Assembly (NCBI GenBank): GCA_019239425.1
Contig: JAFAZX010000103.1
Coordinates: 85,127-149,126 of the forward strand
Source: Acidobacteriota bacterium
Lineage (GTDB): Bacteria; Acidobacteriota; Blastocatellia; Pyrinomonadales; Pyrinomonadaceae
Direction of reading: 5' to 3'
Length of the DNA stretch: 64,000 bases
In this document: piece after piece, positions 1,270 through 18,233 of the stretch
How positions within the stretch are numbered: position 1 is the stretch's first letter
Layout: every line of letters starts with the position of its first letter
Program-made: the position numbers and the translations under genes
Notes under the pieces: generated by a model
Seen by the model: only the letters and a program-made list of their open reading frames with translations
Databases searched by the model: none
What the model was told of the DNA's origin: nothing

Positions 1270-1479
1270 GTGTGTCCTCCGGATGGACCGAATCCGTCGT
1301 ATGCCGGCTGCCTCACGCGGGCGGCGCGTTGGCGACCCGAAGGCTAAGGCCCGCGGGCGCGCGACCTCGCTCGAAGTAACCACTGGCAGCTATCTGCTGG
1401 GGAGCCGGGTGTTGCTTAACCTGACCGAAGAGGCCCGAAGGGTGACCTGCCCCTCGAAGCCTTCAAACGCAACCAAGTT

Positions 1480-1501
1480 TTCTTTGTACGACCGGAAAAG
1501 A
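1480..1501. promoter_or_regulatory. Second, weaker operator-like site in the TonB receptor leader
   Basis: This site matches 17 of 22 positions of the site at 18181-18202, including the core GACCGGA. It starts 32 bases from the stronger site at 1512, about three helical turns, as expected for cooperative binding by one regulator. It lies downstream of the predicted transcription start of the receptor gene. Confidence 0.45.
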
Positions 1502-1511
1502 TGCTAAAGGG

Positions 1512-1533
1512 TTTGTTGCACGACCTAACAAAA
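1512..1533. promoter_or_regulatory. Operator-like palindrome TTTGTT-N10-ACAAAA upstream of TonB receptor
   Basis: The half-sites are TTTGTT and ACAAAA with the 10-base core GCACGACCTA. It begins three bases downstream of the -10 box, so it would cover the transcription start, a classic repressor position. Sites with the same half-sites and spacing occur at 3056-3077 and 18181-18202. The half-sites resemble ROK-family XylR operators known from Firmicutes; assignment to such a regulator is inference. Confidence 0.6.
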
Positions 1534-1536
1534 GCA

Positions 1537-1565
1537 TTAGTATTACAGCTCAGATTCTTTGTCAA
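1537..1565 (-). promoter_or_regulatory. Sigma70-type promoter for the TonB receptor
   Basis: On the minus strand there is a perfect -35 TTGACA (1560-1565), a 17-base spacer and a -10 TACTAA (1537-1542). Transcription would start near 1530 and give a leader of about 260 bases. The operator-like palindrome follows the -10 immediately. Confidence 0.65.
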
Positions 1566-1858: not shown

Positions 1859-2950
1859 CTACTTCGCGCCCTGCCCCGCGGCGGCGTTCTGATAGATGGC
1901 CTCACGCTTCTGGTAGCCGTCCTTGACGACCGTGTCGTCGATGTTCGCCTTGTCCACGACGAGCGGCTCCAGAAGGATCGAGGGCACGTCGACCTTGCCG
2001 TTGTTGATGCGGGCGGGCGCGTCGACCTGCTCGCCGCGCGCTAAGGCCACGGCCGCCTCGGCCGCCTTGCGCGCGAGCAGGTGGACGGGCTTGTAGACGG
2101 TCATCGACTGCGTGCCGGCGACGATGCGCTGCAGCCCCGCGAGGTCTGCGTCCTGCCCAGACACTAAAACCTTCCCCGCCACGCCCGCCGTTTCCAGAGC
2201 GGAGACCGCGCCGCCCGCGGTCGCGTCGTTCGAGGCGACGACGGCCTGCACGTCTCTGTTCGACTTCGTCAGGGCGTCCTCGCAGATGCGCAGCGCCTCG
2301 CTCGCCAGCCAGTCCTTCGCCCACTGGTCGGAGACGACCTTGATGTCGCCGCGGTCGATGGCGGGCTGGAGGACGTTCATCTGCCCCTTGCGGAAGAGGA
2401 GCGCGTTGTTGTCGGTGGGCGCGCCGCCGATGAGGACGTAGTTCCCTTTCGGCGCACGGTCTAAAAGGTACTTCGCCTGCAGCTCGCCGACCTTCTCGTT
2501 GTCGAAGGAGACGTAGAGCGCGGGTTCGCTGCTGCGTATGAGCCGGTCGTAGGAGAGGACTGGGACGCCCTTGGCCTTGGCCGAAGCGACGATGGTGGCG
2601 GCGACCTCGCCGTTGTGCGGAATGACGACGAGCACGTCCACGCCCTGCGTCAGGAGGTTCTCGGACTGCTGCACCTGCGCCTTGTCGTCGCCGTTAGCCG
2701 ACTGGACGAGCACCTCCGCGCCGAGTTCCTTGGCGCGGGCAACAAAAAGGTCTCGGTCGCGCTGCCAGCGCTCCTCCTTGAGCGTGTCCATCGAGAGGCC
2801 GATGCGAACCGGGCCGGTCTTCTTTCCGCCGCCGGGCGCGCCGCCGGCCTGCTGCGCCGGCTGGACGCAGGCGAGCTGCGCGGAGGAGAAGACGAGCGCG
2901 AAGAGCGCGACGGCCCCGAAGAGGCTGCGAGAAAGTTTGTGTGTGTTCAT
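1859..2950 (-). CDS. xylF: D-xylose ABC transporter substrate-binding protein (XylF-type)
   Basis: The 363-aa product is a periplasmic binding protein of the sugar-binding Peripla_BP_4 family and closely follows E. coli XylF along its length. Recognised landmarks are LKEERWQRDRDLFV, VQSANGDDKAQVQQSENL, SFDNEKVGELQAKYL, VVASNDATAGGAVSAL, VSGQDADLAGLQRIVAGTQ and MTVYKPVHLLA. XylF binds D-xylose for an XylG ATPase and XylH permease. The N-terminus is a signal peptide with a Cys (QLACVQP), possibly a lipoprotein although the lipobox is not canonical. I chose ATG 2950 (preceded by AAGGAAGCAG) over the longer ORF, which has no signal peptide at its N-terminus. No xylG or xylH is visible in the window. 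The gap to the divergent GH2 holds an operator-like site, and a hairpin follows the gene. Confidence 0.93.
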   Translation of the reverse strand: MNTHKLSRSLFGAVALFALVFSSAQLACVQPAQQAGGAPGGGKKTGPVRIGLSMDTLKEERWQRDRDLFVARAKELGAEVLVQSANGDDKAQVQQSENLLTQGVDVLVVIPHNGEVAATIVASAKAKGVPVLSYDRLIRSSEPALYVSFDNEKVGELQAKYLLDRAPKGNYVLIGGAPTDNNALLFRKGQMNVLQPAIDRGDIKVVSDQWAKDWLASEALRICEDALTKSNRDVQAVVASNDATAGGAVSALETAGVAGKVLVSGQDADLAGLQRIVAGTQSMTVYKPVHLLARKAAEAAVALARGEQVDAPARINNGKVDVPSILLEPLVVDKANIDDTVVKDGYQKREAIYQNAAAGQGAK

Positions 2951-3055: not shown

Positions 3056-3077
3056 TTTGTTGCAGGAGTATACAAAA
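3056..3077. promoter_or_regulatory. Operator-like palindrome TTTGTT-N10-ACAAAA between xylF and GH2
   Basis: It has the same half-sites and 10-base spacing as at 1512 and 18181; the core here is GCAGGAGTAT. It lies in the divergent gap, 106 bases before xylF and 24 before the GH2 start. A minus-strand TATACT (3067-3072) lies inside it and could be a -10 for xylF, but no good -35 pairs with it. On the plus strand a TTGACA at 2968-2973 could serve the GH2 gene. Confidence 0.5.
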
Positions 3078-3100: not shown

Positions 3101-5689
3101 TTGAAGACGAGAAGACTGACCCTTGCGGCCCTGCCCCTGCTCCTGGTGCTGTTGGCGCCTCCCGTTTGGGCACAGTTGCCGAAGACGAGCGTCACGCTCG
3201 ACTCCGGCTGGACGTTCCGGCAGGCCGGGAAGGACGACTGGCACAAGGCCAAAGTCCCCGGCTCCGTTCAGACGGACTTACTCGCCAACAAGCTCATCGA
3301 AGACCCCTTCTACCGCGACAACGAGCCGAAGCTGCAGTGGATCGGCAAGACCGACTGGGAGTACCGGACGACCTTCGACGTGCCGGCCGCAATGCTCGCG
3401 CGGCGCAACGTCGAGCTGGTCTTCGAGGGGCTGGACACGTACGCCACCGTCTACCTCAACGAACGGCAGGTGCTTGAAGCCGACAACATGTTCCGCACGT
3501 GGCGCGTGGACGCGAAGCTGAATCTGAAGGCCGGGGCCAACACGCTCCGCGTCGTCTTCCGCTCGCCGATTAACGAGGTGCTGCCGCGGATGAAGGCCCT
3601 CGGGTACGAACTCCCCGCGTCGAACGACCAGGGCGAGAAGACCTCGCCGCACACGCGCAAGGCACCTTATCAATACGGCTGGGACTGGGGGCCGCGCTTC
3701 GTCACCTGCGGCGTGTGGAAGCCCGTCCGGCTCGAAGCGTGGGACGACGCGCGCATCGACAGCCTGCGCGTTGTGCAGAATCAACTCGGCAGGGACAAGG
3801 CGCAGTTGACCGCCGAGGTTGAAATTATGTCGTCGGAGGCTTCGGCTGCTCGGCTCATCGTCACGGACACGGCTCGCACACTCAGCTTCTATGCGGAGGA
3901 GTTGGTCAAACTCAACCCGGGCATGAACAAGGTCTCCGTTGACTTCACCATCCGTCAACCTAAGCTCTGGTGGCCGAACGGGATGGGCGCGCAGCCGCTT
4001 TACGGCGTCGACGCAGACTTGCGAGTCTTCAAACGCGGACGAGGCATTAATACTTATGGCCTGACCGACCAGGCACAAACGCGCGTCGGACTGCGCACCG
4101 TGGAGTTACGACAGCAAAAGGATGCTGACGGCAAGAGTTTCACATTCGTCGTCAACGGCGTGCCCGTCTTCGCCAAAGGCGCGAACTGGATTCCGGCCGA
4201 CAGTTTTCCGGAGCGCGTGACGCGAGACAGGTACAGACATCTCTTAGAATCTGCGCGCGACGCGAACATGAACATGCTGCGCGTGTGGGGCGGCGGCTAC
4301 TACGAGTCGGACGAGTTCTACAATTTATGCGACGAGCTGGGGCTGATGGTCTGGCAGGACTTCATGTTCGCGTGCAGCATGTACCCGGGCGACGAGAAGT
4401 TTCTTGAGAGCGTGCGGGCCGAGGCGACCGACAACGTCCGGCGGCTCCGCAACCACCCGTCCGTCGTCATCTGGGTCGGCAACAACGAGGTCGAGACCGC
4501 GTGGCAGCACTGGGGCTGGAAGCAGAACCTCCCGGCGAAGCTCTGGGACGACTACAAGAAAATCTTCCACGGCGTCCTGCCCGAAGTCATCGCCGCCGAA
4601 GACCCTTCGCGCCCCTACTGGCCCAGCTCGCCGAGTTCCAACTTAGAGGAGGACTCCGACTCGCAAAGGATGGGCGACGTGCACTACTGGGAGGTCTGGC
4701 ACGCCTCGAAGCCGTTCGACTATTACGAGCGGCAGCACCCGCGCTTCATGAGCGAGTACGGCTTCCAGTCCTTCCCCGCAATCGAGACGGTCAACGCCTA
4801 CACCTTGCCTTCGGATCACAACATACAGTCGCCCGTCATGCTCGCGCACCAGAAGCACCCGCGCGGCAACCAGCTCATACGCGAGTACATGCTGCGCGAC
4901 TTCCCCGAGCCGAAGGACTTCGAGTCGTTCCTCTACGCGAGCCAGGTCTTGCAAGCCGAGGGCATCAAGGTCGGGGCGGAGCACCTGCGCCGCATCATGC
5001 CGCACAACATGGGTTCGCTCTTCTGGCAGTTGGACGACTGCTGGCCGGTCGCTTCGTGGTCGAGCGTGGACTACTTCGGCCGCTGGAAGGCGCTGCAATA
5101 CTACGCGCGCCGCTTCTACAACCCCGTGCTGTTAAGCCCGCACGTCGAGGGCGACCGGGTCAGGCTCTACGTCGTCTCCGACCGCACGGAGCCGCTCCGC
5201 GCGCAACTGCACGTCCGCCTGCAAGACTTCGACGGCCGCGTCGTCTCCGACATCACCAACCCCGTCGAGGTCTCGCCGCTGACGAGCAAGGCGTATCAGG
5301 CCCTGCCACTCTCGGCGATGCTCGAAGGCCAAGACCCGACACGCCTCTTCCTGTACTGCGAGCTGCTCGCGGGCGGAAAGGTGGTTTCGTCAAACACGCT
5401 CTTCTTCCGCCCCTTCAAAGACCTCACGCTCGCCGCGCCGAACGTCACCACGCAGGTCACGCGCGCGCGCGCCGAGACCTTCGTCACGCTCTCGACCGAC
5501 CGCCTCGCGCGCGCCGTCTACCTCTCCGCGCCCGGCCTCGAAGGCTCCTTCGCAGACAACTTCTTCGACCTCCTCCCCGGCCAGAAGGTCACCGTCGCCT
5601 TCCGAGGCAAAGGCACCGTCACCCCCGTCGAGCTGCGCCGACGCCTCCGCGTCCGCACCCTCTCCGACGCCTTCGATTGGAAGAAATGA
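3101..5689 (+). CDS. GH2 beta-mannosidase, secreted
   Basis: The 862-aa protein is a glycoside hydrolase family 2 enzyme of the beta-mannosidase type, cleaving terminal beta-mannose from mannan or glucomannan oligosaccharides. Domains in order are a signal peptide (LTLAALPLLLVLLAPPVWAQ), a sugar-binding jelly roll, an Ig-like domain, a TIM barrel and C-terminal Ig-like domains. The acid/base Glu is in WVGNNEVETAW near residue 462, and the nucleophile Glu is in FMSEYGFQSFP near 551. VWGGGYYESDEFYNLCDE is a typical mannosidase motif. The track ORF starts at 2966, but that would put 45 odd residues before the signal peptide. TTG 3101 fits the signal peptide and has GCGAGG upstream; GTG 3086 is an alternative. 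It is divergent from xylF and shares the operator-bearing gap. Confidence 0.9.
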   Translation: MKTRRLTLAALPLLLVLLAPPVWAQLPKTSVTLDSGWTFRQAGKDDWHKAKVPGSVQTDLLANKLIEDPFYRDNEPKLQWIGKTDWEYRTTFDVPAAMLARRNVELVFEGLDTYATVYLNERQVLEADNMFRTWRVDAKLNLKAGANTLRVVFRSPINEVLPRMKALGYELPASNDQGEKTSPHTRKAPYQYGWDWGPRFVTCGVWKPVRLEAWDDARIDSLRVVQNQLGRDKAQLTAEVEIMSSEASAARLIVTDTARTLSFYAEELVKLNPGMNKVSVDFTIRQPKLWWPNGMGAQPLYGVDADLRVFKRGRGINTYGLTDQAQTRVGLRTVELRQQKDADGKSFTFVVNGVPVFAKGANWIPADSFPERVTRDRYRHLLESARDANMNMLRVWGGGYYESDEFYNLCDELGLMVWQDFMFACSMYPGDEKFLESVRAEATDNVRRLRNHPSVVIWVGNNEVETAWQHWGWKQNLPAKLWDDYKKIFHGVLPEVIAAEDPSRPYWPSSPSSNLEEDSDSQRMGDVHYWEVWHASKPFDYYERQHPRFMSEYGFQSFPAIETVNAYTLPSDHNIQSPVMLAHQKHPRGNQLIREYMLRDFPEPKDFESFLYASQVLQAEGIKVGAEHLRRIMPHNMGSLFWQLDDCWPVASWSSVDYFGRWKALQYYARRFYNPVLLSPHVEGDRVRLYVVSDRTEPLRAQLHVRLQDFDGRVVSDITNPVEVSPLTSKAYQALPLSAMLEGQDPTRLFLYCELLAGGKVVSSNTLFFRPFKDLTLAAPNVTTQVTRARAETFVTLSTDRLARAVYLSAPGLEGSFADNFFDLLPGQKVTVAFRGKGTVTPVELRRRLRVRTLSDAFDWKK

Positions 5690-6821: not shown

Positions 6822-7475
6822 GTGAAGAACCGTCATCCCAAACAACTCTTTCGGAGACGTGCGCCCGTCGTGCTCGTCCTACTCGCGGCCTGCGCGCTCG
6901 CGGCCTACGATGCACGCGGCGCGGAGGGTGCGTCTGTCCGCCTCAACACGGTCGGCTACCTGCCGCGACACGAGAAGCGCGCGACGCTCCCCGCGCCCTG
7001 CGTCGGGTTCAAGGTCGTGCGCGTCCCGGACGGCGCGGCCGTGCTGCAAGGGATATCCGCCGGCCCACGTCACGAGGACGACACGGACGAAGACCTCTGC
7101 GTCGCGGACTTCTCGGCGCTGCGCGGGCCGGGCCTCTACCGACTCGAAGCGGGCGCGGCACGCTCCGCGCCGTTCCGCGTCAGTGCCGACGTGTACGAGT
7201 CTGCCTTCAAGACGGCCGTGCGCGCGATGCACCTCTGGCGCTGCGGCTCGGCCGTGCGCCTTGAGCAAGGGGGCGTGACGTACGAGCACGCCGCCTGTCA
7301 CCTGGAAGACGCGCGGCTCGACTTCGTCGGCTCGCCCGGCGCGCGCCTCGACACCGCGGGCGGCTGGCCGCGCGCGACCGACTGGGTCGACGACTCGGAG
7401 AACTACCGCGTCAACGAGATCGCCATCAACTGGAACGCCCCGCTCGTCTACGCCCTCGCCGCCGCGCTGCCATGA
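6822..7475 (+). pseudogene. GH9 glycosidase remnant: N- and C-termini joined in frame, catalytic barrel missing
   Basis: The 217-aa ORF starts with a signal peptide (VVLVLLAACALAAYDARG) and a CelD_N-like Ig domain (VRLNTVGYLPRHEKRATL, ending near SADVYESAF). It continues into the first helix region of a GH9 (alpha/alpha)6 barrel (MHLWRCGSAV, EHAACHLEDA, DTAGGW). At the Trp codon 7365-7367 it jumps to what is normally the last 40 residues of a GH9 enzyme (TDWVDDSENYRVNEIAINW, then APLVYALAA). The DAGD catalytic-base motif and roughly 350-400 barrel residues are absent, while the C-terminal acid Glu (NEIAINW) remains. It therefore cannot be a working GH9. The start could be GTG 6822 or the track's TTG 6777. 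An assembly collapse is an alternative to a real deletion. Confidence 0.8.
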
Positions 7476-15639: not shown

Positions 15640-18030
15640 CTATCTCGACGGGAAGCGCGTCACCTGCCACCTGACCTGGCCGCGCAGAGGGTCGGTTTGC
15701 AGCGTGTAGCCCGAGGCCGCGCCCGTCAGGTTGAGCGTCTGGACGTTGCCCGCGGGGAGCGCGAAGCGGCCGGCGGCCGGGGCGTTGTCGGTGCTGAAGA
15801 CGCGCAGCTCGACGTTCTTCCAGTCGATGTCGTCCGTGCTCTGCGCGACCTTCACGTGCGGGATGACGGCGTTGTTCCTCACGAGCAGCACGACCGGAAT
15901 CTGCCCCGCCTCGATCCGGTGCCAGCGCTCGCCCGCGTACGGCTTGCCCGTCTGGTAGTCGATCCATGTGCCCGGCGGCAGGTAGACACGCCTCGCGTCG
16001 GCGCTCTCCATCAAGGGCGCGACCAGGAGGTCTGAGCCGAACATGTACTCGTCGTCGACCGTCCAGGAGGTCGGGTCGCCCGGGTACTCGAAGAAGAGCG
16101 CGCGCAGCATCGGCCAGCCCTTCGCCGAAGAGTCCTTCGCCTGCGCCAGGATGTACGGCATCAGCGAATACTTCAGCCCGAGCGCGCGGCGGAAGTCTTC
16201 CGTCAAAGCCTCGTCGTACTCCCACGGCTCGCGCGGCGGCGCGCCGTGCGCGCGCGTGTGCGAGGTCAGCACGCCCCACGCCAGCCAGCGGCGGTAGAGG
16301 TCGCGCGGCGCCTTGTTGACGAAGCCGCCCACGTCGTGGCTCCAGTAGGTGAAGCCCGACAGCCCGAACGAGAGTCCGCCGCGCAGCTCGGCCGCCATCG
16401 CCGAGTCCGTGTTCTCGGCGTCGCCGCCCCAGTGCAAAGGATAACGTTGACTCCCCGCCCACGCGCTCCGCGCCCAGATGATGTTCTCGCCCGTCGTCTC
16501 GCGCGTGATGTCCGCGACGGCCTTGTTGTAGCGCAGGGGATAGAGGTTGTGCTCGTACCAGCCCGAGCGGCCCGAGGCGTAGAGGCCGCTGACGGGCGCG
16601 CCCTCGCCGAAGTCGACCTTGATGGCGCCGACGCCGAGTTTTAAGAGCGCCGCGATCTTCGACTGATACCACTTGACGGCCGCCGGGTTCGACATGTCGA
16701 GCACCGCGTCCTCGAAGGGCAGGTTGCCCGCGAGGTCTTTCACCTCGTAGCCGTGCTCGACGATTTCGGGGTAAAGCTCGTTCTTCGGCGTGAAGTAGGT
16801 GTACTGCCAGAGGCTCACGCGGAAGCCCTGCTTCTTCAAGTCCGCGATCATCTTCGCCGGGTCTCTGAAACGTGACTTCGAGAACTGGTAGTTGCTGCGC
16901 CAGTCGGTCTCGAACCAGCCGGTGTCGAGGTGGATGACGTCCGCGGGCACCTTGTACTGCCGGAGCTTCGCCGCCACGTCGCGCACCTCGTCCTCGCTCT
17001 TGTAGGTGATGCGGCTCATCCAGAAGCCGAACGACCAGAGCGGCGGGACGGGGCTGCGGCCCGTCAGGGCCGTGTACTCCGAAAGGACGTCCTTCGGCTC
17101 GCCGAGGAAGACGAAGATGTCGATATTCTCGTCGCCGGTGTAGATGGCGTTGTGGCTGTCGTAGGTCTTGCCGAAGTCGAAGGTGACGGGCGCGGAGGTG
17201 TGGACGAACATGCCGTAGCCGTTGCTGGAGAGGAAGAACGGGATCGGCTTGTACATGAACTCGTTCTGCACGCCCATGCCGTCGCGCGTCCAGGCGTTGA
17301 CCTTCTGCCCGCGCTTGTCGAAGCGCGTGAACGACTCGCCGCAGCCGAAGATTTTTTCGTCGTGCTGGAGTTCGAAGGTCGCGGCCGTCAGGCGCGAGAG
17401 GTCGGAGGCGCGGCGCACGAACGAGAAGGGTATCGGCGTGAAGTAGGTCGCGGGGTCGCCCGCGTTCTGCGTGCGCGTGAGCAGGCGGCCCGCCGCGTCG
17501 TAGAACTCGACGTGCCACGGGTTCTTAATCAACTTCACGCGCCCGTAGGCGCTCGTCCAGGTCACGGCGTCCGCCGTCTGTTCGACGCGCCAGGACTTAT
17601 CCGTCGGCACCGGGCCGGCGAGCATGACGGAGTCCGCGTCGCGCGGCATCTCCCCGCGGGTCGAGAAGCGGAGGCGGACGGTGCGCGGGCTGACGAAGGT
17701 GATCGAGAAGGGCAGGACGGGGTCCTGGTCGTACTCGGTGCCGGGGAACTCGGTGCCGCGCCCCTTGCCCAGGGTCACGTCGACCTTGTTGAAGGAGAGC
17801 GTGGTCGCGCGCAGATACCTGTCCCACTGGAGCGTGCCGCGCCCGCTGCCCGCGTCGAAGCTCGCGACCTTGGAGCCGACGAAGTAGACCTGCTCCATCC
17901 TCTGGAACTCCTGCGACACGTCCACGGGGTCGTTGAGCACCTGCGCCGCCGCCGGGCCGCACGCCAGCAGGACGAGCAGGGCCGCCTTCAGGATGTGCGC
18001 GCCGCGGCGCGCGCGTTCGGGTGTGAGCAA
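15640..18030 (-). CDS. GH31 alpha-xylosidase (YicI-type), secreted
   Basis: The roughly 796-aa family 31 enzyme releases alpha-xylose from the non-reducing end of xyloglucan oligosaccharides. An N-terminal signal (ILKAALLVLLACGPAAAQ) precedes a beta-sandwich domain (KIFGCGESFTRFDKRGQKVN). The TIM barrel has PLWSFGFWMSRITYKSEDEV and the YicI-like nucleophile motif GAIKVDFGEGAPVSG near 472. The acid/base Asp is probably in HWGGDAENTDSAM near 537. C-terminal beta domains follow (WPMLRALFFEYP, MFGSDLLVAPLM). KxDFGE is diagnostic of alpha-xylosidases over alpha-glucosidases. The start is ambiguous: TTG 18030 fits the signal peptide and has AGGAGG upstream, while TTG 18153 (track) has GGAGG five bases upstream but adds 41 low-complexity residues. 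The upstream promoter carries the same operator as the TonB receptor and xylF. Confidence 0.9.
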   Translation of the reverse strand: MLTPERARRGAHILKAALLVLLACGPAAAQVLNDPVDVSQEFQRMEQVYFVGSKVASFDAGSGRGTLQWDRYLRATTLSFNKVDVTLGKGRGTEFPGTEYDQDPVLPFSITFVSPRTVRLRFSTRGEMPRDADSVMLAGPVPTDKSWRVEQTADAVTWTSAYGRVKLIKNPWHVEFYDAAGRLLTRTQNAGDPATYFTPIPFSFVRRASDLSRLTAATFELQHDEKIFGCGESFTRFDKRGQKVNAWTRDGMGVQNEFMYKPIPFFLSSNGYGMFVHTSAPVTFDFGKTYDSHNAIYTGDENIDIFVFLGEPKDVLSEYTALTGRSPVPPLWSFGFWMSRITYKSEDEVRDVAAKLRQYKVPADVIHLDTGWFETDWRSNYQFSKSRFRDPAKMIADLKKQGFRVSLWQYTYFTPKNELYPEIVEHGYEVKDLAGNLPFEDAVLDMSNPAAVKWYQSKIAALLKLGVGAIKVDFGEGAPVSGLYASGRSGWYEHNLYPLRYNKAVADITRETTGENIIWARSAWAGSQRYPLHWGGDAENTDSAMAAELRGGLSFGLSGFTYWSHDVGGFVNKAPRDLYRRWLAWGVLTSHTRAHGAPPREPWEYDEALTEDFRRALGLKYSLMPYILAQAKDSSAKGWPMLRALFFEYPGDPTSWTVDDEYMFGSDLLVAPLMESADARRVYLPPGTWIDYQTGKPYAGERWHRIEAGQIPVVLLVRNNAVIPHVKVAQSTDDIDWKNVELRVFSTDNAPAAGRFALPAGNVQTLNLTGAASGYTLQTDPLRGQVRWQVTRFPSR

Positions 18031-18180: not shown

Positions 18181-18202
18181 TTTGTTGTAAGACCGGACAA
18201 AA
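18181..18202. promoter_or_regulatory. Operator-like palindrome TTTGTT-N10-ACAAAA at the GH31 promoter
   Basis: The core is GTAAGACCGG. It starts two bases downstream of the -10 box on the minus strand, the same geometry as at the TonB receptor promoter. It differs from the 1512 site at only four or so of 23 positions including the next base. Confidence 0.6.
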
Positions 18203-18204
18203 GG

Positions 18205-18233
18205 TTTCTATTACTCGGCCCGCCCCTTGTCAA
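18205..18233 (-). promoter_or_regulatory. Sigma70-type promoter for GH31
   Basis: On the minus strand there is TTGACA (18228-18233), a 17-base spacer and TAGAAA (18205-18210). This gives a start near 18198 and a leader of about 45 or 170 bases depending on the GH31 start codon. The leader contains self-complementary GCGCGGCCGCGC blocks. Confidence 0.6.

Follow-up and report, generated by a model that had tools for sequence, protein, structure and literature searches.

Which regulator governs the TonB-dependent receptor gene in a large carbohydrate-enzyme cluster, and which sugar would it answer to? The gene lies in a 64,000-nucleotide stretch of DNA, here called the window (C47:85127-149126), from the 7.45 Mb draft genome of an uncultured soil acidobacterium. 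Named relatives are Pyrinomonadaceae or subdivision 4 Acidobacteria, and most of the relatives are metagenome-assembled genomes. The cluster runs from C47:48001 into the window and holds GH1, GH2, GH3, GH5, GH9, GH10, GH31, GH42, GH51, GH88 and esterase genes. Positions 1-1221 of the window (minus strand) encode the N-terminal part of the receptor, with carboxypeptidase-regulatory, plug and OMP_b-brl_4 domains, and the gene continues past the window edge to C47:82634. Near it lie genes for XylF, a D-xylose ABC transporter substrate-binding protein (1859-2950, minus strand; TIGR02634, 428.9 bits against a cut-off of 389.55), and for a GH2 beta-mannosidase-like enzyme with Pfam mannosidase domains (3101-5689, plus strand). 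A Pfam GH31 enzyme is encoded at 15640-18030 (minus strand); its best match is an alpha-xylosidase, although its 524.6 bits against the NCBIfam alpha-xylosidase model PRK10658 fall under the cut-off of 606. At 6870-7475 the window also contains a short GH9 remnant, probably an internally deleted gene, in which an N-terminal Ig-like domain meets only the final 27 catalytic-domain positions. Xylose isomerase of this genome (G000) is on contig C13, as two partial genes truncated by its opposite ends (C13:1-471 and C13:40330-40608); being 99.6% identical over 279 bases, they represent either a duplicated gene or a repeat at which the assembly broke.

The receptor promoter reads on the minus strand as a -35 element TTGACA (1565-1560), a 17-base spacer, a -10 element TACTAA (1542-1537), a 3-base gap and the palindrome TTTTGTTAGGTCGTGCAACAAA (1533-1512), exactly as the original prediction had described. 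Both hexamers were read directly, and relatives carry a similar type of -10 element. The palindrome, a predicted main operator with the top matrix score of the window (34.6), would cover the expected transcription start; the likely start codon of the receptor, by reading, is the ATG at 1221, about 290 bases downstream. A second site had been claimed 32 bases further. It is real (1479-1500, minus strand, about three helical turns downstream of the main one) and matches the GH31 site at 17 of 22 positions, but its score against a 26-site matrix is only 8.6 versus 34.6. Scores this high occur at only 6 of 63,980 window positions. It is at best a weak accessory site, and a full operator at this place is not supported. 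Tandem sites at full strength occur elsewhere, 80 bp apart in G001 and 98 bp apart in L196.

The exact palindrome pattern occurs at three places in the window (1512, 3056 and 18181), bearing out the recurrence reported earlier for the latter two. Three exact sites compared with none in 300 dinucleotide shuffles cannot be put down to chance; shuffling in 200-base blocks gave a mean of 0.005, and tolerating up to two mismatches yielded seven matches against 0.48 expected. The predicted operator at 3056-3077 (minus strand, score 28.0) lies between the xylF-like gene on the minus strand and the GH2 gene on the plus strand. No clear -35/-10 pair at standard spacing accompanies it, and the element is kept 5' of the GH2 orthologue in G001 despite differing flanks. 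The predicted operator of the GH31 gene (18181-18202, minus strand, score 31.5) follows by 2 bases the end of a minus-strand promoter at 18205-18233, made up of TTGACA (18233-18228), 17 bases and TAGAAA (18210-18205). A further predicted target in this genome is a SASA esterase gene (C47:63549), where a perfect TTGACA stands 33 bases before the site.

The symmetric consensus of the original description is too loose genome-wide. Searched across the genome, it found mixed targets, and we set aside its matches at PEP carboxykinase, HSP33, a HemN-like gene, a TetR gene, a CBS protein and, on contig C103, a stretch of low coding content. The refined matrix was built from 26 sites selected for lying outside coding sequence; GH3 matches in G001 and G002 were left out, being inside signal-peptide coding sequence. 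The resulting motif, TTTGYYNGGTCNTGCAACAAA, is asymmetric, with a nearly invariant right half TGCAACAAA and a looser left half, most sites taking the form CTTTTG...CAACAAAG. The asymmetry recurs from genome to genome and so probably contributes to recognition. In 119 family genomes the strict pattern TTTG-N8-TGCAACAAA had about 66 matches and its backward control about 15; for about 20 of the 66, a ROK gene was no more than some 300 bp away.

Two of the symmetric matches are conserved in their own right. Four genomes of the genus share the palindrome TTTGTT-CAAGAGTTC-AACAAA about 90 bp 5' of the PEP carboxykinase gene (G000 C66:82335-82357, or L037:10035-10057, with orthologues at L126:4443, L127:4571 and L128:5139) while its flanks drift. 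With a core unlike that of the ROK motif, it likely belongs to another regulator, one of gluconeogenesis. About 240 bp 5' of a HemN-like radical SAM gene, CTTTTGTTCCTTCACACAACAAA is kept in three genomes (L036:9939-9960, L129:5092 and L130:5201).

The original prediction had proposed a shared repressor regulon that a matrix of the three window sites should tie to a ROK or similar gene. We applied this matrix (1512, 3056 and 18181) to the 400 bp downstream of ROK in 29 acidobacterial ROK loci. A match above the 99.9th percentile of shuffles was present in 16 of the 29, and 12 of the 29 beat all 2,900 shuffles; in the same loci the upstream scan and the reversed matrix each gave 0. The gene after the ROK-linked site is nearly always a TonB receptor. 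These receptors form two groups, one of them orthologous to that of the window (50-77% identity). This linkage supports a shared, probably ROK-type, repressor regulon. G001, a genome of the same genus, has xylose isomerase followed by ROK, the site, a second site and TonB, and G002 has ROK, then the site, then TonB; L163, L164, L167 and L196 carry a site orthologous to 1512-1533 between ROK and TonB. The upstream regions of the ROK orthologues in relatives contained no site, which sits instead after the gene and before TonB.

The position of the sites on their promoters is conserved. At the TonB genes of about 20 relatives TTGACA begins 30-34 bases 5' of the site, a spacing from which it follows that the operator would cover the transcription start; sites begin 2-4 bases past the -10 element. 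The same unit recurs at the GH31 and SASA esterase genes and at a GH27-GH5 operon in G001; a canonical -35 is absent at site 3056, at the G001 SASA gene and at the G002 GH31 gene. Site-linked genes in relatives encode GH2, SASA esterase and the GH27-GH5 operon in G001, GH31 in G002 and xylulokinase in L188.

Other ROK proteins may use other sites. Most ROK homologues of 54-60% identity are without the motif, and upstream of three stands TACTAAATCGATTTAGTA or a close variant. In L069, L072 and L074 a palindrome of the TACTAAATCGATTTAGTA form stands 5' of ROK orthologues (57-60% identity) without a TTTG-type site, and may be the operator of those genes themselves. At L041:9100-9180 (C1) a ROK gene is divergent from a TonB receptor gene whose -35 element is overlapped by the perfect palindrome CATTTTGTTGACAAAATG, possibly a third ROK-TonB pair with another operator. 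At L034:8730-9994 (C5) ROK precedes TonB and TTTTGTCCAAACTTCGAACAAA, found also in G003, overlaps the ROK -10 element after a TTGACA; the ROK-TonB pair here is paralogous and its operator related. In two Bacteroidota loci (L192 and L193) two tandem ROK genes lie 5' of a large gene, which in L192 encodes a TonB receptor; the first ROK gene is preceded by TTTGTTGGTTGCGACAACAAA or TTTGTTGGTTGAAACAACAAA.

The candidate repressor is P0001, a ROK gene on the minus strand of the same contig (C47:65932-67113), 18 kb outside the window and inside the same carbohydrate-enzyme cluster. It is one of ten ROK-family matches in the genome, and its ROK domain (PF00480) scores 189.8 bits against a cut-off of 22.9. 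The N-terminal winged helix (residues 25-67) matches MarR_2 and HTH_24 weakly, with E values of 7e-5 and 4e-4 that are under the curated cut-offs. Among solved structures the closest relative is Lmo0178, also a ROK protein (PDB 5f7p, 5f7q and 5f7r), matched nearly full length from residue 13 with E = 1e-44. ROK proteins carry the zinc motif CxCGxxGCxE; at this position P0001 reads CAAGNRECWE, retaining the outer cysteines and losing the second cysteine and one glycine, and its paralogues on C88 and C10 retain the second cysteine. P0001 groups with the ROK proteins of L163, L164 and L167 at 97/89 support, and the receptors in those ROK-site-TonB cassettes are 63-74% identical to that of the window. 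The promoter of P0001 has a weaker copy of the motif, TTTGGTCAGTCGTCAAACAAA (C47:67164-67186, score 16.8).

The motif holds a fixed place on a sigma-70-type promoter, is conserved beside ROK genes and recurs at hemicellulose genes. On this sequence evidence it is very probably the operator of a ROK-family repressor, and we regard with considerable confidence the region at 1512-1565 as the promoter-operator of a TonB glycan receptor under P0001, which would be released by a hemicellulose-derived sugar, most likely D-xylose. An operator on a sigma-70-type start site together with a ROK protein is the classical arrangement for repression; sites of the ROK protein XylR in or overlapping promoters have been taken as repressor sites (PMC8579813). 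Without inducer, a ROK dimer would sit on the 21-22 bp imperfect palindrome, 2-4 bases past the -10 element and over the transcription start, and block initiation. Hemicellulose, probably xyloglucan or xylan, would supply the inducer, the repressor would leave, and the receptor and the xylose-binding protein would be made together with the GH31 alpha-xylosidase and further enzymes. Counting against this reading are the lower score of the copy at the P0001 promoter, the place of the site behind ROK rather than in front of it in relatives, the general lack of the motif at homologues of 54-60% identity and the sites that have no canonical -35.

The identity of the inducer is where another reading survives best. 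The proposed link of site-bearing genes to xylose is supported by XylF, XylA and XylB, which all score above curated cut-offs: XylA lies directly 5' of ROK in G001 (529 against 447), and in L188 XylB (537 against 380) lies 24 bp behind a related site, together with a sugar permease, ROK and an XylF-like protein. The target genes form a hemicellulose set, and the known activities of the GH31, GH5, GH42, GH95 and GH27 families together point to xyloglucan. The same ROK repressor could nevertheless respond to a xyloglucan or mannan oligosaccharide, galactose, glucose or mannose, which we think possible but rather unlikely. Mannoside and galactoside enzymes are also present in the locus, where GH2 mannosidase, GH42, GH3, GH5, GH51 and GH10 accompany GH31, and the linked cluster of G001 has GH27 and GH95. 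Distant Firmicute homologues (about 33% identity) adjoin galactose genes, so the inducer cannot be told from homology alone; a reading of these neighbors as XylFGH was rejected, the genes being GalT, GalK and GalM. Against such an inducer, XylF, XylA and XylB recur beside ROK or its sites in Pyrinomonadaceae, and these gene neighbors make D-xylose the most likely inducer.

That the sites are bound by a LacI-type or other regulator, with the ROK gene a mere neighbor, is improbable. LacI-family proteins bind palindromes too and the genome has five LacI genes, but none of the five is on C47, where P0001 is the only transcription factor recognized among the scanned genes of C47:48000-149126 (some of which had no match at all). 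Moreover, many genomes have the site just after a ROK gene, and G003, which lacks a close ROK orthologue, lacks TGCAACAAA sites. Slightly less probable still is that ROK acts as an activator, or that the element works in the RNA leader instead of in DNA: leaders of 70-430 nt follow the site and the site is an inverted repeat, but a start 2-4 bases past the -10 element is a repressor position, and the site occurs in both orientations relative to its target gene (GH2 versus TonB). Chance likeness among AT-rich pieces of promoter within a genome rich in GC, which the matches of the loose palindrome to unrelated genes and two GH3 matches within coding sequence might suggest, is hardly credible in view of the shuffles, the reversed-pattern controls and the family-wide conservation; for the main sites the controls already refute it.

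How does the predicted ROK control by P0001 compare with known systems? In Bacillus, Paenibacillus and other Firmicutes, XylR is a ROK repressor with an N-terminal HTH that controls xylA, xylB, xylFGH and alpha-xylosidase genes (PMC2873477). The likeness drawn in the original prediction extends to a predicted ROK repressor at xylose or xyloside genes, with xylose-gene linkage and a predicted operator overlapping the promoter and expected start, but not to close membership in Firmicute XylR. The Bacillaceae-type operator is GTTT-N7-AAAC (cited in PMC9104551), and the 26-site motif does not match it, differing in spacing and core (TTTG-N13-CAAA, with the right half as above). The Paenibacillus site has ACTTNG...CNAAGT ends and is functionally asymmetric, repair of the palindrome reducing binding to 1.9% (PMC9104551); the sites here resemble it in mostly reading CTTTTG...CAACAAAG, and they too keep an asymmetry. 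Targets here include a TonB outer-membrane receptor, whereas Firmicutes are without such receptors. Sequence comparison also places P0001 closer to Lmo0178 than to the XylR of known structure, 4ija. Lmo0178, described as a regulator of alpha-glucan breakdown (PMC9104551), is a Firmicute protein with another substrate, a distant relative and not an orthologue. In Thermotoga maritima, the ROK repressors XylR and ManR respond to xylose and mannose and control xylan or mannan enzymes and sugar transporters; the targets, in the part of that account available to us, are ABC transporters, and no TonB receptor is described there (PMC3750489). The top-scoring NCBIfam models for P0001 are those of Escherichia coli NagC and Mlc, at 173.7 and 149 bits, far below the membership cut-offs of 650 and 530, and their targets differ.

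These results describe a new predicted regulon of Pyrinomonadaceae, in which a ROK protein would control a TonB/CAZyme locus for hemicellulose, a type of control that is already known; our literature search found no paper on such a regulon in Acidobacteriota. More tentatively, and at somewhat less than even chances, ROK-operator-TonB could be a recurring, self-contained cassette that controls how Pyrinomonadaceae and other bacteria import glycans. Its duplicates would have receptors of their own, and each operator would drift along with its ROK protein. If so, the cassette would serve these soil bacteria as SusR and hybrid two-component systems serve the polysaccharide loci of Bacteroidetes. 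Soils are rich in Acidobacteriota, most of them uncultured, and a motif that joins receptor, transporter and enzymes in one regulon allows substrate prediction for TonB receptors that carry no functional label.
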